A DNA stretch of 37,396 nucleotides from the IMG/VR virus record IMGVR_UViG_3300009603_000028, positions 1-37,396 of that record. One strand, 5' to 3'. The position numbers and the translations under genes are program-made. Each line of letters begins with the position of its first letter. Position 1 is the first letter of the stretch. The notes under the pieces are model-generated. The model did no database searches. It had not been told where the DNA came from and saw only the letters and a list, made by a program, of their open reading frames with translations. This document shows positions 6,529 through 11,189 of the stretch, piece by piece. The DNA is from a virus.

Positions 6529-6557
6529 TTGCAATGTGAAATAACCCGGTTTAGAAG
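6529..6557 (+). promoter_or_regulatory. Candidate rightward early promoter
   Basis: TTGCAA (6529-6534), 17-nt spacer, TAGAAG (6552-6557). Each box matches 4 of 6 consensus bases. The -10 box lies inside the AACCC/GGGTT inverted repeat, so a repressor bound there would block it. Confidence 0.4.
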
Positions 6558-6574
6558 GGTTCTCACCAACACAG

Positions 6575-6592
6575 ACCAATCCGACGATTGGT
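6575..6592. promoter_or_regulatory. Operator-like perfect inverted repeat
   Basis: ACCAATC-CGAC-GATTGGT, 7-bp arms, located between the candidate promoter and the ATG at 6607. A nearby TCACCAA (6562-6568) repeats part of one arm (TCACCAAT reads on the other strand at 6587-6594). Likely a regulator site or 5'-UTR hairpin. Confidence 0.55.
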
Positions 6593-6606
6593 GAAAGGGA
6601 GTAGTT

Positions 6607-6780
6607 ATGACCGTTCATTTTCATTCATCGGATAGTCGCTTCTGCGGTTCGATGCGGCAGGGACGGGCGTTCACTTTTGAACCTAACGATGTCACTTGCC
6701 GGTCCTGTCAGGAACAGGATGCTTTTGAACTTTCCAAAGAGGCTGAATCTCTGCTCGCTTCTCTCGGAGAGCCAGCATGA
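6607..6780 (+). CDS. Rightward operon gene 1: small Cys/His protein, 57 aa
   Basis: First gene of the rightward operon. His and Cys residues in VHFHSSDSRFCG and VTCRSCQEQD could form a small zinc site; the rest is acidic and helical (AFELSKEAESLL). GGGAG lies 6-7 nt before the ATG. The stop overlaps the next ATG (ATGA). Unknown function; position suggests an immediate-early host-interaction protein. Confidence 0.65.
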   Translation: MTVHFHSSDSRFCGSMRQGRAFTFEPNDVTCRSCQEQDAFELSKEAESLLASLGEPA

Positions 6781-7130
6781 CCATCATGTCCGCCATCCCT
6801 GCCTACGAGGCAGAGCGCAACCGGCAGGCGGCAAACCATACCGGTGACGTCAGCGAATTGGTTGCCACCCCCACCAAAGCCGAACGCCTTATCGCCCGCG
6901 CCAATGCTGCGATTACCTCCCTGCGCCACGGTGCAGAGACAGGGCATTGCGATGCGGCGAAGGCACTCCGCCTGGCCGACACGATCCAGCGCCAGATGAA
7001 TGCCGCCCACGATACGCACCTGTGGCCGGACAATGTCGAAGGCACCGACCTTTGGGACACGCTGGCGAGATACGATGCTTGGGTCGCCTACTTTCGGCGA
7101 CAGACGCAGGATAGGGAGTGCGTGGCGTGA
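6777..7130 (+). CDS. Rightward operon gene 2: hypothetical protein, 117 aa
   Basis: Unrecognised, mainly helical (KAERLIARANAAITSLRHG, AAKALRLADTIQRQMNAAHD) with a Trp-rich C-terminal part (LWPDNVEGTDLWDTLARYDAW). Coupled to both neighbours by ATGA and GTGA overlaps. Function unknown. Confidence 0.65.
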   Translation: MTIMSAIPAYEAERNRQAANHTGDVSELVATPTKAERLIARANAAITSLRHGAETGHCDAAKALRLADTIQRQMNAAHDTHLWPDNVEGTDLWDTLARYDAWVAYFRRQTQDRECVA

Positions 7131-7558
7131 GCGACATCGAAACCATGCGCCACCTGTTGGATCGCGACCGCTACATCGTTGCAATCGCACTTGGCCACAT
7201 CAAGAGCGCCCTCAACGGCCATCGGTGGTTGCTGGAAGGGCGCGGGCCCTACGATTGGGATGATGAACGCTACCGCGAGGAATTCACTGATTGGGTGCAG
7301 AACGTAGAAGCGGCGACCGGGTTATTGGCTAAGCTCGCATGGGATAAGGGCGATTGCGAAACTGAGGCCGACAAGGTTGCTGCAGCAAGAGAAGCTGCGC
7401 GAATCTATGCGGTGAACCCACCAGTTGGGCACCGTACCATGCTCCCCTCTGATTTGGGTTTGCCGTGCCCCTCCTGCGCTGCCTTTCGCACCCCAAGCGA
7501 CACCCCCGATCCTGAATACACTCCGCGTGTGTTCGCCGGGATGGGGAGGGCGAGGTGA
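7127..7558 (+). CDS. Rightward operon gene 3: hypothetical protein, 143 aa
   Basis: GTG 7127 was chosen: it forms GTGA with the preceding stop and has GGGAG 8 nt upstream; GTG 7118 is the alternative. The N-terminal half is helical (YIVAIALGHIKSALNGHRWLL), while the C-terminal part has a Cys pair LPCPSCAAF and a Pro-rich tail. Function unknown. Confidence 0.6.
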   Translation: MSDIETMRHLLDRDRYIVAIALGHIKSALNGHRWLLEGRGPYDWDDERYREEFTDWVQNVEAATGLLAKLAWDKGDCETEADKVAAAREAARIYAVNPPVGHRTMLPSDLGLPCPSCAAFRTPSDTPDPEYTPRVFAGMGRAR

Positions 7559-7707
7559 TGCGAGGTTATGCGCTCGGCACCGCGGCAGGACTTGCCGCTT
7601 GGCTGCTCTTCGATGGCGATCCCGTCTTGGGATTGTTCGGCGCGTACATCTGCTTGCTTGGCCGCGTCGTCCTCACCCGCACCCCCACAGGAGAAACCCA
7701 TGGATAG
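7558..7707 (+). CDS. Rightward operon gene 4: small membrane protein, 49 aa
   Basis: Two hydrophobic stretches (YALGTAAGLAAWLLF and VLGLFGAYICLLGRVVL) separated by DGDP, then a polar tail. This hairpin topology suits an inner-membrane protein. ATG 7558 overlaps the previous stop (TGATG), and the gene overlaps the next ATG (7700). Confidence 0.6.
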   Translation: MRGYALGTAAGLAAWLLFDGDPVLGLFGAYICLLGRVVLTRTPTGETHG

Positions 7708-8080
7708 GACCAAGGACGTGCCGGAGGTGACTATCACGGGGGCTGACGACCAATGCGTTGCTGAAATCCTGTCCTACTTCGACAGCTATCGGCTCGCGAC
7801 GGTTACACCGGTTTGCCACGAAGTCGCCCGCCACCGCATCGAAGCCACCCGCCCCCTCACGGCAGAGATAGCAGACCTACGTGCTCAACTGGATGAGGCG
7901 ATGGAGGCGTTGGGAAAAGCGCAGCAGTGGTTCGCTGAATATGCCGAAAGCCACAGCGAGAAAGCGAAAATAGCCGGCGATAATGAGCGCGAATACGAGG
8001 CTCGCCGCCAGAAGGCCCGGACCAATGAGCAGCGGAGCGAATACCTCCGCGCCATCCTCACCAAAAGGAAGCAGCCATGA
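7700..8080 (+). CDS. Rightward operon gene 5: coiled-coil protein, 126 aa
   Basis: The C-terminal two thirds are a long charged helix likely to form a coiled coil (TAEIADLRAQLDEAMEALG, then EREYEARRQKARTNEQRSEY). The N-terminal third (VTITGADDQCVAEILSYFD) is distinct. GGAG precedes the ATG by 6 nt. No known family. Confidence 0.65.
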   Translation: MDRTKDVPEVTITGADDQCVAEILSYFDSYRLATVTPVCHEVARHRIEATRPLTAEIADLRAQLDEAMEALGKAQQWFAEYAESHSEKAKIAGDNEREYEARRQKARTNEQRSEYLRAILTKRKQP

Positions 8081-8286
8081 GCGGAATGAACCGAGACAGG
8101 CTCGCCATAGCGGTAGCTGAGGCAGAGCGATTCATCGAACGCGCTAAGGCGCTTCCCAAGCCCGTTCCATACGAACGCGGCGGCCACACGTTCACGGACA
8201 ACTACTTCCCCAAGGAGCAAGGGGCAATCCGCCGTGCGAGCATGGATCTTACGAGAGCCCTTGCCGATCTACGGAGGCCCGCATGA
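8077..8286 (+). CDS. Rightward operon gene 6: hypothetical protein, 69 aa
   Basis: Helical, basic small protein (LAIAVAEAERFIERAKALPK) with a short central YERGGHTFTDNYFP. Overlaps both neighbours by four bases (ATGA). Function unknown. Confidence 0.6.
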   Translation: MSGMNRDRLAIAVAEAERFIERAKALPKPVPYERGGHTFTDNYFPKEQGAIRRASMDLTRALADLRRPA

Positions 8287-8480
8287 GCAGCACCGGACAA
8301 CTAAGCCGCCAGCAAGACCATGCCGCGCGTGATGTTCTCACCCGCGAATGGGAAGCAACCTACACGCTCAACCGGCACATAACGCCCGAGGTGAAGGCCC
8401 GCGCTGACGCTGAATGGCAGGCAATGGATGAGCGCGGAAACCTGCCCGAGGGATGGGCTGCGCAATCAGGGAGTGTTTGA
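8283..8480 (+). CDS. Rightward operon gene 7: hypothetical protein, 65 aa
   Basis: Polar, helical (QQDHAARDVLTREWEATY, VKARADAEWQAMDERG). Starts with an ATGA overlap on the previous gene and ends one base before the next ATG. Function unknown. Confidence 0.6.
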   Translation: MSSTGQLSRQQDHAARDVLTREWEATYTLNRHITPEVKARADAEWQAMDERGNLPEGWAAQSGSV

Positions 8481-8481
8481 G

Positions 8482-8751
8482 ATGGAAGAATGGAAGCCAA
8501 TGGATAGCGCTCCATGGGATGGGCCTTGCGTCCTACTCTGGAGGCATCGGGACAAGCAGCACTATGTAGCTAAGCGCGTTCGCGGCGAGCATGGGCCGGG
8601 TTGGTGCACGCCAGACGGCTATCAGATATTCTCCCCTGACACTTGGATGCCGCTTCCGAAGCCTCCCGTTATTCAGGAGGAGCCGCAGCAGCATGATGAT
8701 CGCCCCGAATGGGAGATGCGCACCGGTTTCCGCGAGGAAGATTTCGCATGA
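8482..8751 (+). CDS. Rightward operon gene 8: DUF551-like protein, 89 aa
   Basis: The pattern EWKPMDSAPWDGPCVLLW at the start, with TWMPLPKPP about 35 residues later, matches the DUF551 type (W-x-P-x-x-x-A-P-x-D-G ... W-x-P-L-P-x-P-P), a small domain common in phage early regions with no known function. The Glu/Asp/Gln-rich tail after that is extra. ATG 8482 has GGGAG 8 nt upstream. Confidence 0.7.
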   Translation: MEEWKPMDSAPWDGPCVLLWRHRDKQHYVAKRVRGEHGPGWCTPDGYQIFSPDTWMPLPKPPVIQEEPQQHDDRPEWEMRTGFREEDFA

Positions 8752-8891
8752 CCCGCTCGCACACATACGAACGCAGCCACAGGTGCGCACCCCGCCAGAA
8801 TTTTGGCGGCGGCTACCACTACAACGCGCCCATCCTGCCTATGGAGAGGCCCGGACTGTTTGCGCGGATATTCAAAGGATCGAGAGCATGA
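8748..8891 (+). CDS. Rightward operon gene 9: hypothetical protein, 47 aa
   Basis: Small and basic, rich in Arg, His and Tyr (SHTYERSHRCAPRQNFGGGY), ending in LFARIFKGSRA. ATGA overlaps at both ends support translation. Possibly nucleic-acid- or protein-binding; unknown. Confidence 0.55.
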   Translation: MTRSHTYERSHRCAPRQNFGGGYHYNAPILPMERPGLFARIFKGSRA

Positions 8892-9070
8892 GTAAGACCA
8901 ACACCGAGGCCGTGGAGGCGGCGCAACGGAAAATCTCAAGCAAGATAGCGGGCCGAACGGTTTTAGAAAAAGCCGCCCACCGCATTGCCCGCCAACTCGG
9001 CCTGGGCACAAGTCAACACGTAATCAACGCGCTCATACAGGCGTATAAGCAGGGTAGGGAGATTGTATAA
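8888..9070 (+). CDS. Rightward operon gene 10: hypothetical protein, 60 aa
   Basis: Basic helical protein; the tract EKAAHRIARQLGLGTSQHVI resembles a helix-turn-helix-sized unit but is not a clear match. It overlaps the next gene as TAATG. Function unknown. Confidence 0.55.
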   Translation: MSKTNTEAVEAAQRKISSKIAGRTVLEKAAHRIARQLGLGTSQHVINALIQAYKQGREIV

Positions 9071-9525
9071 TGTTCGATTTCATTATGATTTCGTTTTTAT
9101 GTCTGGTCACAGCAGCACTGACATCCATATTCTTCGATCTCATCGTCGGATGGTCCCCGAGATTCTTATGGCAAAGCGATTTCCATAGGCAGGCGTGCTT
9201 GATGGTTGGGGACCTCGCCAAAGAAGACCTTTGGGAACCGCATGCCTATTCGACCAACACACTGGTTCATAAGGACAGCGGTGTATCGGTGAGCGAAGAT
9301 CAGACGTTTGATATGCTGCCGACATACAAGGTGAGTGGGAAAGGTGCATCGACGTTCAAGATCAGGCCCGGAGACGTTGGCTACTGGTCAACGCACAAAA
9401 TGGTGAAGCATTCCAAGAAGCGGAAAAGCGATGCAAAGGATGCAGATGCGCTTGCCTCTATAAACGCCGCATACAAATCAATGAAGCAGGAAGCACCTAA
9501 CCCCCACCACTCGCACAAGCCATAA
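9070..9525 (+). CDS. Rightward operon gene 11: membrane-anchored protein, 151 aa
   Basis: An N-terminal hydrophobic segment (FIMISFLCLVTAALTSIFF, residues about 4-22) is followed by a polar domain and a Lys-rich C-terminal part (VKHSKKRKSDAKDAD). Last gene of the rightward operon; a strong promoter for a separate short transcript begins 7 nt after its stop. Function unknown. Confidence 0.65.
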   Translation: MFDFIMISFLCLVTAALTSIFFDLIVGWSPRFLWQSDFHRQACLMVGDLAKEDLWEPHAYSTNTLVHKDSGVSVSEDQTFDMLPTYKVSGKGASTFKIRPGDVGYWSTHKMVKHSKKRKSDAKDADALASINAAYKSMKQEAPNPHHSHKP

Positions 9526-9531
9526 GCGCGC

Positions 9532-9559
9532 TTGACCTTTTCCGAATCCTCGCTATCAT
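9532..9559 (+). promoter_or_regulatory. Strong sigma70-like promoter for a short RNA
   Basis: TTGACC (9532-9537), 16-nt spacer, TATCAT (9554-9559), each 5 of 6 to consensus. No protein gene lies downstream on this strand before a terminator about 100 nt away. Expected transcription start near 9566. Confidence 0.65.
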
Positions 9560-9565
9560 CACCTC

Positions 9566-9660
9566 ATCTCTAGTAGATACCCTGACGAGGGAGGCTTATA
9601 TGAGCACTGGTGGCTAAAACCATCAACCGGAGGGAGGCCTAAGCGCCTCCCTCTTTCGTT
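9566..9660 (+). ncRNA. Candidate small RNA, about 95 nt
   Basis: Bounded by a good promoter (9532-9559) and a GC-rich hairpin with a T-tract (9630-9660). Internal hairpins: CCCT-GACG-AGGG (about 9580-9591) and TGGTGG-CTAAAA-CCATCA (9608-9625, one G-U). GAGGGAGGC occurs twice (9587-9595 and 9630-9638), so either copy can pair with the terminator's 3' arm GCCTCCCTC, giving alternative folds. A 5-codon frame (MSTGG, 9600-9617) sits behind GGGAGG. It could be a regulatory RNA for host or phage mRNAs. Confidence 0.55.
9630..9660 (+). terminator. Intrinsic terminator of rightward unit
   Basis: Perfect 9-bp stem GAGGGAGGC/GCCTCCCTC with loop CTAAGC, then TTTCGTT. It stands between convergent gene blocks. 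The leftward flank lacks an immediate T-run, so leftward termination is less certain. Confidence 0.75.
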
Positions 9661-9946
9661 ATGGCACCACAGTCTCTTGAGTACACGCAAGCAAGGCTGC
9701 GCGCATGGTTATGACTGCAGCCCGCAATTCCAGAGCAGATGCCGCCACGATAAGCAGATCCGATGCCGCGTTGCCGGTTAGCTGGTCGCCTACTTGGGCG
9801 GGTTCATCTGGAATGCTATCGGCAGGAAGGCAACTCACGGGTACAGGAACATTTACGATTTCCGTCCTGATCCCTGGTTGCGGATGCTGGCAAGCGCCTA
9901 GGGCTAATAGAGCCGCTATCGGCCACGCATTCTTCGTAGTTCCCAT
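9659..9946 (-). CDS. Rz1-like lipoprotein (o-spanin candidate), 95 aa
   Basis: An N-terminal signal with lipobox LALGAC (Cys 19) is followed by QHPQPGIRTEIV and the Pro-rich block VNVPVPVSCLPADSIPDEP, typical of Rz1-type outer-membrane spanins, which fuse inner and outer membranes at the end of lysis. It is the last gene of the lysis cassette. Its first ten codons overlap the 3' end of the endonuclease gene, and GAGGG lies a few bases before the ATG. A second, truncated lipoprotein start of the same design occurs at 10804-10902, on the other side of the endonuclease. Confidence 0.75.
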   Translation of the reverse strand: MGTTKNAWPIAALLALGACQHPQPGIRTEIVNVPVPVSCLPADSIPDEPAQVGDQLTGNAASDLLIVAASALELRAAVITMRAALLACTQETVVP

Positions 9947-10731
9947 ACATCCCTCGTGAGGTTAATCGCCGTTTCGACCGACATATTGTCCTTTAGAATC
10001 CTTTTGCGCAACACATTCTGATGGATTCCAGTTTCTTCGGATAGCTGAGAAAATGTCCAATTGCGACCGCGCCATTCCACTTGAGCAACTGATTTTGCCC
10101 GATTGCCAAGCTGGCTGACGGGCCAGCCCTTATTTATCCTATTTTTCAATGTCGAATAGGTTAGACCATGTTTCCTCGCAAAGTCTGCGTGCGTTAAACG
10201 CTCGCCATTCAATTCAATAAATTGATTCCGGCTAGTGTTATTGCAGTTTTGCAACCTCGTCACCCAACGGCAATTGCTAGGGGCATATGGCCCATCATTA
10301 TCTATGCGGTCGCACTCAAGGCTTTCCTCATACCCGTTGGCTTCAGACCAATCGCGGAAAGCTGAAAAATCATCTTGCCATTCTGGCGCAACAGATATTC
10401 CGCGCCCACCATATCTTGAGTAGTTTGTGTCTTTGGGGTTGTTGCAGCGCTGTCTAATGCCACTCCATATGTTGAACAGTCGCGTTCCTACACCGCCATG
10501 CTTGTACGTCCGCGCGGCCTTTCTCTTACTCACACAAGAGGGGCAAACACCGCTATGGTAGGATGCTTTGACTTCTTGCGCCAATGTCTCGAAGCGCTCG
10601 CCACAGGAGCATTCGAATTCCCAAACCGCCATTCTGGTGTTTTGCTTGCCGCCTCGGACTTTGAAGCCAGTGTGCCTGATGGCCACTAGATTTCCGAAAC
10701 GCTGTCCTGTAATGTCTTTTAACGCTGCCAT
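9916..10731 (-). CDS. Homing-type endonuclease (HNH/AP2-like), 271 aa
   Basis: Zinc-ribbon-like Cys pairs (FECSCGERFE and CPSCVSKRK) are followed by LFNIWSGIRQRCNNP, YSRYGGRGISV and ECDRIDNDGPYAPSNCRWVT. This is the layout of a widespread phage endonuclease family with an HNH/AP2-like core (RCxNP ... YGGRGI ... DRIDNDG ... NCRW). The C-terminal half has repeated DNA-binding-like segments (LTHADFARKHGLTYSTLKNRI and WTFSQLSEETGI). GGGAG precedes the ATG. It lies inside the lysis cassette, so it is probably a mobile gene. Confidence 0.85.
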   Translation of the reverse strand: MAALKDITGQRFGNLVAIRHTGFKVRGGKQNTRMAVWEFECSCGERFETLAQEVKASYHSGVCPSCVSKRKAARTYKHGGVGTRLFNIWSGIRQRCNNPKDTNYSRYGGRGISVAPEWQDDFSAFRDWSEANGYEESLECDRIDNDGPYAPSNCRWVTRLQNCNNTSRNQFIELNGERLTHADFARKHGLTYSTLKNRINKGWPVSQLGNRAKSVAQVEWRGRNWTFSQLSEETGIHQNVLRKRILKDNMSVETAINLTRDVWELRRMRGR

Positions 10732-10761
10732 TGCTATTCTCCCTAGCTTTGCAGTTAGGCT

Positions 10762-10788
10762 CGGGGTTGGTGCAGCAACACCACCTCG
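10762..10788. other. Stable hairpin upstream of the endonuclease
   Basis: About 10 bp paired with one bulge: CGGGGT(T)GGTG-CAGCAA-CACCACCTCG. It lies between the truncated lipoprotein stop and the endonuclease start and has no T-run, so it more likely affects mRNA stability or coupling than ends transcription. Confidence 0.4.
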
Positions 10789-10803
10789 GGCCGGTAAACT
10801 CTA

Positions 10804-10902
10804 CTATAATCCGCCCCAAGTATCAATCCCAGGCTGCGGGTGATTGCAGGAAGCGAGGACAGCCGAAGCTGCCCCCACCATCACTATAAGGCGCGCGTTC
10901 AT
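10804..10902 (-). pseudogene. Truncated Rz1-like lipoprotein, 32 aa
   Basis: Signal peptide and lipobox VLASC with Cys at position 19, then NHPQPGID, ending after WGGL at TAG. This matches the complete lipoprotein at 9659-9946 in spacing to Cys and in the following HPQPGI, yet the rest is missing. ATG 10902 overlaps the stop of the 96-aa gene as ATGA, so the start is still coupled. The most likely reading is the remnant of an Rz1 gene disrupted when the endonuclease arrived. Confidence 0.6.
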
Positions 10903-11189
10903 GCGACTTGAGCCTGCGCTTGTTCCGCCCGCTGCTCATCCGTCACAAACCCATGGCTTGCCAGATAGCGTGCTACAGTGGATCCGTTCTTGTTCATGAC
11001 GAACACTGCGCCGAATGGATTTTCGAGGCGAATTTCAAATTCATTCATGTCGTCATCGTCAGTGTAGACTTTGAACCTGTTGCCGATGGCGGGAATACAC
11101 TCTTCACCCTTGGGCTGTAGTCGTTCGATCCGACGTGCTGAAAAGATAGCTTCCGCGCCGTTTGCTTGGCGGTGTAAGATAGTCAACAT
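10899..11189 (-). CDS. Hypothetical protein, 96 aa
   Basis: Unrecognised. Contains EECIPAIGNRFKVYTDDDDMNEF, a strand-rich middle and GSTVARYLASHGFVTDEQRAEQ near the end. ATG 11189 was chosen over an upstream alternative because GAAGGAGAAG lies just before it. It separates the Rz-like gene from the lipoprotein remnant; phage spanin genes are normally adjacent or nested, so this may be a later arrival. Confidence 0.6.
   Translation of the reverse strand: MLTILHRQANGAEAIFSARRIERLQPKGEECIPAIGNRFKVYTDDDDMNEFEIRLENPFGAVFVMNKNGSTVARYLASHGFVTDEQRAEQAQAQVA

Follow-up and report, generated by a model that had tools for sequence, protein, structure and literature searches.

What does a phage gain from a short stretch of DNA that has the layout of a small RNA gene, lies where two operons run into each other and holds no proper open reading frame? 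The stretch in question, positions 9566-9660, belongs to an IMG/VR virus record that was analysed whole (37,396 bases, hereafter the window). P22-type head genes are present in the window, namely those for portal, major head protein, terminase, head closure and DNA-transfer protein. Among the closest relatives by these genes are a prophage-like region of Sphingopyxis (portal 68%, head protein 79%) and, for cultured phages, Pseudanabaena phage Pam1 (portal 45%); from these relatives, the host is probably a sphingomonad or another alphaproteobacterium. The late genes run leftward and an early block, 6777-9525, runs rightward, such that the two converge at 9525-9659. Comparison with related phages reveals an early region that is strongly mosaic. 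Within the divergent early promoter region, 29 nt (6563-6591) are identical in one relative, G832, and are probably an early promoter/operator.

The features of the junction, with the basis of each assignment, are these:

9070-9525, plus strand: last rightward gene of the early operon, which may start internally; no family match
9497-9532, minus strand: 36-nt junction element CTAACCCCCACCACTCGCACAAGCCATAAGCGCGCT, conserved in three lineages
9532-9559, plus strand: sigma-70-like promoter, TTGACC-16-TATCAT; consensus match
9533-9703, no strand assigned: insertion of ~165-170 nt, absent from related phages; alignment
9566-9660, plus strand: predicted short RNA of ~90 nt, without a proper ORF; sequence features
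9580-9591, plus strand: hairpin CCCU-GACG-AGGG; folding
9590-9617, plus strand: Shine-Dalgarno-like GGAGG, ATG and the five-codon frame MSTGG with its stop; frame listing
9608-9625, plus strand: hairpin UGGUGG-CUAAAA-CCAUCA; folding
9629-9654, plus strand: predicted intrinsic terminator GGAGGGAGGC-CTAAGC-GCCTCCCTCT with tail TTCGTTAT; sequence
9659-9946, minus strand: Rz1-like outer spanin lipoprotein, last leftward late gene; lipobox and Rz-like neighbour

The anatomy described in an earlier, sequence-only reading is indeed in place. That reading had put a promoter with five matches of six in each box just after the last rightward gene, and TTGACC (9532-9537) and TATCAT (9554-9559), with a 16-nt spacer, do follow the stop of that gene at 9525, giving 10 matches of 12 overall and a predicted start at ~9566. 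The roughly 95 nt that it described as lacking a proper ORF hold only ATG-AGC-ACT-GGT-GGC-TAA at 9600-9617 (MSTGG) and a 10-codon GTG frame at 9610; its two further hairpins are found at 9580-9591 and 9608-9625, with an additional weak one at 9594-9605; and its GC-rich terminator is the hairpin at 9629-9654, which has 10 pairs, seven of them G-C, a loop of 6 nt and a tail that is U-rich but interrupted. Because a promoter-like/terminator unit without an ORF lies between convergent operons, the small RNA that was proposed for this site is possible, but the regulatory role attached to it is unsupported. No DNA homologues of 9526-9660 were found in phages, plasmids, 41 head-gene relatives or 397 Sphingomonadaceae genomes, and Rfam gave no match across the whole window. 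The short matches to 9526-9660 that were looked at lay for the most part in host sequence that looks coding, and were taken as chance. When paired against the translation starts of the phage, the RNA does not outperform shuffled versions of itself, 143 of 200 of which do as well. Moreover, folding of 9566-9660 gives a z of -3.25, which falls to -1.49 when the terminator is excluded (9566-9628), so the stability of the RNA is mostly that of its terminator. The motif GAGGGAGGC occurs more often than expected (5 copies against 0.4), but three of these copies are the element's own hairpin and repeat, and no exact repeat patterns of it were found in IMG/VR. Antitermination by way of two GAGGGAGGC copies was considered and rejected, since a single 3' arm would have to serve both and the adjacent copy would pair with it first. 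To our knowledge, the stretch bears no resemblance to a solitary CRISPR-repeat decoy.

The same junction in related phages bears on how the stretch arose. It is absent from the head-gene relatives and from the endolysin relatives. A search with the small early-operon proteins retrieved six loci (L166-L171, in the records G829, G834, G830, G831, G832 and G833), which fall into three lineages, G829/G834, G830 and G831/G832/G833. The early genes are common to these relatives and the window, as are both spanin genes in G830 and G832. In this regard, the Rz1-like name of the gene at 9659-9946 is inferred from its lipobox and the neighbouring Rz-like gene; it shares 74-76% identity with its Rz1-like counterparts in G830 and G832. 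No family could be found for the protein of the opposing gene, 9070-9525, the C-terminus of which, PNPHHSHKP, is common to L168 and L169.

In L168 and L169 the two convergent genes overlap by 29 nt, and these code for the early protein end PNPHHSHKP one way and the spanin end ALMACASGGG the other, each followed by a stop (the Rz1-like proteins themselves end in ALMACASGGG in L168 and ALMACASDGG in L169); in L166, which has a different late gene, there is instead a gap of 30 nt. In the window, the corresponding sequence is the single-copy (in each related record) element CTAACCCCCACCACTCGCACAAGCCATAAGCGCGCT, identity to which is 100% in G829, 97% in G830 (over 38 nt) and 92% in G832 (over 37 nt). 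In the rightward direction it codes for the C-terminus of the last early protein, and in the leftward direction for SALMACASGGG with its stop. Immediately after it lies the insert, as a single clean piece: window positions 9534-9703 align with 2 nt in G830 and positions 9530-9694 with 0 nt in G832, and in both phages the base or two that come next after the element are already spanin sequence. The site is likewise empty in G829 (L166/L167); G832 belongs to the L169-L171 group. The element is 100% kept in G829 (L166, near 6800-6835) despite the unrelated late gene behind it, and may be a recombination joint between modules.

By this comparison, the insertion is the derived state, because the window retains the native spanin end only as the relict beyond the insert, while the present C-terminus, LACTQETVVP, and its stop codon are supplied by the insert. 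By the same comparison the stretch is an optional extra of this lineage and not a conserved regulatory RNA, because the site is empty in three related phage lineages. Conservation of the promoter and hairpins in related phages, one of two checks that the sequence-only reading had set itself, was looked for and the sites in G829, G830 and G832 are empty; in other words, the regulatory RNA that it proposed is missing from every related junction examined. Promoter, RNA and terminator all lie within the insert, save for one or two bases at the start of the -35 box.

An attachment site at the junction was also considered, and there is no tRNA at this point, nor a tyrosine integrase in the window or its relatives. 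Elsewhere, a tRNA-like sequence stands between the two spanin genes of L169 (about 6530-6620), and another, beginning GGCGGCGTAGCTCAGTTGGATAGAGC, lies between convergent genes at the junction of G014 (L097); ARAGORN does not accept the latter, which is possibly an altered tRNA or an attachment-site remnant.

The clearest gain from the insert would be the predicted terminator, because the hairpin at 9629-9654 is the only strong rightward terminator of this junction and nothing comparable was found at the junctions of L168, L169 or L166. An enrichment of intrinsic terminators between convergent genes has been described in the sphingomonad Zymomonas (PMC7566282). We tentatively favour, as the leading account though one held at slightly less than even odds, a moron-like insert peculiar to this lineage, for which the ending of early transcription is the best-supported function. 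On this account the lineage would have gained a noncoding piece of ~165-170 nt, either inserted or brought in through recombination with an unknown phage, that now separates the last early gene from the spanin end; its strong hairpin and U-rich tail would end early rightward transcripts, which would otherwise run antisense into the late lysis genes. The 90-nt RNA would then be chiefly the tail of the early mRNA, a separate start at 9566 being possible yet unnecessary. Against such a function, a terminator alone needs neither the 60-70 nt upstream nor a promoter match of 10 in 12, the U tract is short and interrupted, the insert is known in one copy only, and the relatives evidently do without a strong terminator here.

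In a different account, the insert is a self-contained noncoding unit (promoter, structured ~90-nt RNA and terminator) whose RNA acts in trans, with host RNAs as its most likely targets. We consider this possible, although less than likely. The full anatomy of such a unit came in with a single insertion, where the relatives have an empty site, and no comparable promoter exists at the insertion point of the related phages. Among 4000 dinucleotide shuffles of the spacer, only 19 (0.5%) produced a promoter of at least 10/12, and the site is the sole TTGAC-N15-18-TATNNT on either strand of the genome. The alphaproteobacterial promoter consensus is CTTGAC-N17-CTATAT (PMC2873474), to which the CTTGAC-N16-CTATCA of the window is close, with a spacer one base short; by inspection, the motif also outscores the likely early promoter of the phage, TTGCAA-17-TAGAAG near 6570. 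However, sites of at least 10/12 occur twice on the plus strand of the genome, where 1.3 are expected, and not at all on the minus strand; there being no genome-wide excess, the motif is suggestive and is not proof. Moreover, the -35 box spans the insertion edge, with its first one or two bases in the conserved 36-nt element and the remainder in the insert, so the match may be an accident of joining. The absence of conservation anywhere, the unremarkable structure outside the terminator and the lack of a phage mRNA target weigh further against an RNA that acts in trans.

A third account is a coding origin, in which the insert is a worn-down protein moron whose ORF has been deleted to the five codons MSTGG, or in which the five-codon frame is itself translated. 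GGAGG is correctly spaced from the ATG, 34 nt past the predicted start, and promoter, Shine-Dalgarno, ATG, stop and terminator stand in the order expected of a moron gene; but 4.6% of shuffled inserts also show a Shine-Dalgarno plus ATG, and no relative was found with a longer ORF here, the related sites being empty. A protein origin is, in our judgement, unlikely.

The same spanin gene has received a second insertion, an HNH endonuclease gene at 9806-10824, which replaces 63 nt of G830. Upstream of it the native spanin N-terminus is left as the remnant MNARLIVMVGAASAVLASCNHPQPGIDTWGGL, ending in a stop, and a new N-terminus restores the spanin; across the HNH region (9806-10904), a remnant MNARLIVMVGAASAVLASCNHPQPGI is seen at about 10898-10800 and the new spanin start at 9946. 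The two insertions, ~100 bp apart, may have been acquired together, and the proximity of the HNH gene, with the mosaic early region, would fit a noncoding stretch that is recombination debris, that is, the neutral, functionless end of a tract exchanged with the endonuclease insertion. Yet the 102 bp that separate both inserts are ordinary native spanin, 94% identical to G830, and a terminator of 10 pairs just past a stop codon is unlikely as debris, such that we regard a wholly functionless origin as quite improbable.

Among known phage elements, the closest are morons and some small RNAs of lambda and P22-like phages. The pid locus of P22 has been termed a genuine moron, since at that place its relatives are either empty or carry a different insert (PMC3573128), and morons with promoter and terminator are discussed in PMC2147016. 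With these the insert shares a site that is empty in related phages, here G829, G830 and G832, and a terminator of its own, at 9629-9654, as predicted from sequence. Its own promoter is putative, being a 10/12 match with its -35 box at the insertion edge, and the insert has the orientation of the early gene and opposes the late one. Morons are usually protein-coding and of distinct base composition, whereas the insert offers five codons at most from an ATG, and at 52.7% G+C its composition is no different from that of its surroundings (52-56%).

In the P22-like prophage BTP1, nine candidate ncRNAs are expressed, one of them a counterpart of OOP (PMC7067206), so short phage RNAs at operon edges are of a known kind, and the unannotated ncRNAs of P22-type prophages also lend something to the account of an RNA acting in trans. 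OOP of lambda and OOP-BTP1 resemble the predicted RNA in size, in having a promoter, here putative, and an intrinsic terminator, and in facing an opposed neighbour gene (PMC12197685, PMC7067206). There is no sequence relation between them, as the negative Rfam result indicates, and OOP overlaps cII and acts antisense, whereas the predicted RNA would cover only the 3' flank of the late gene: the terminator stem ends at 9654 and the opposite gene stops at 9659, leaving the coding part outside any overlap. Antisense action of the OOP kind is not indicated, since the end of the RNA falls at about the end of the opposite gene. A further likeness is to PreS (LPR1) of lambda, a small RNA gene in the early-left part of the lambdoid map; but PreS binds Hfq and targets host dnaN (PMC12197685), whereas nothing comparable is known for the predicted RNA, and no homology to PreS was found.

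A distant relative, G031 (L112:9919-10545, minus strand), has at its own early/late junction a terminator, a promoter-like CTTGACCCCGGAATCGGGTGGTGGTCTAATTC and a second terminator, with ~200 structured nt between the promoter-like sequence and the second terminator, no evident ORF and a z of -2.16. The layout is that of the window and the sequence is unrelated. It is conceivable, if doubtful, that phages gain noncoding RNA morons, in the form of an inserted promoter-RNA-terminator unit at the early/late convergence whose small RNA acts on the host, and that the layout may recur at this junction, with unrelated sequence, in other phages that have the head-gene set of the window, as in G031.

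Lineage-specific inserts that hold no ORF are easily overlooked in phage annotation. Here, a polarised insertion with an empty-site control offers a clean test between a terminator, an RNA gene and a remnant. Were the insert's own promoter active, this would be an instance of an RNA-only moron; were it inactive, the insert would show how a terminator is gained between convergent phage operons.
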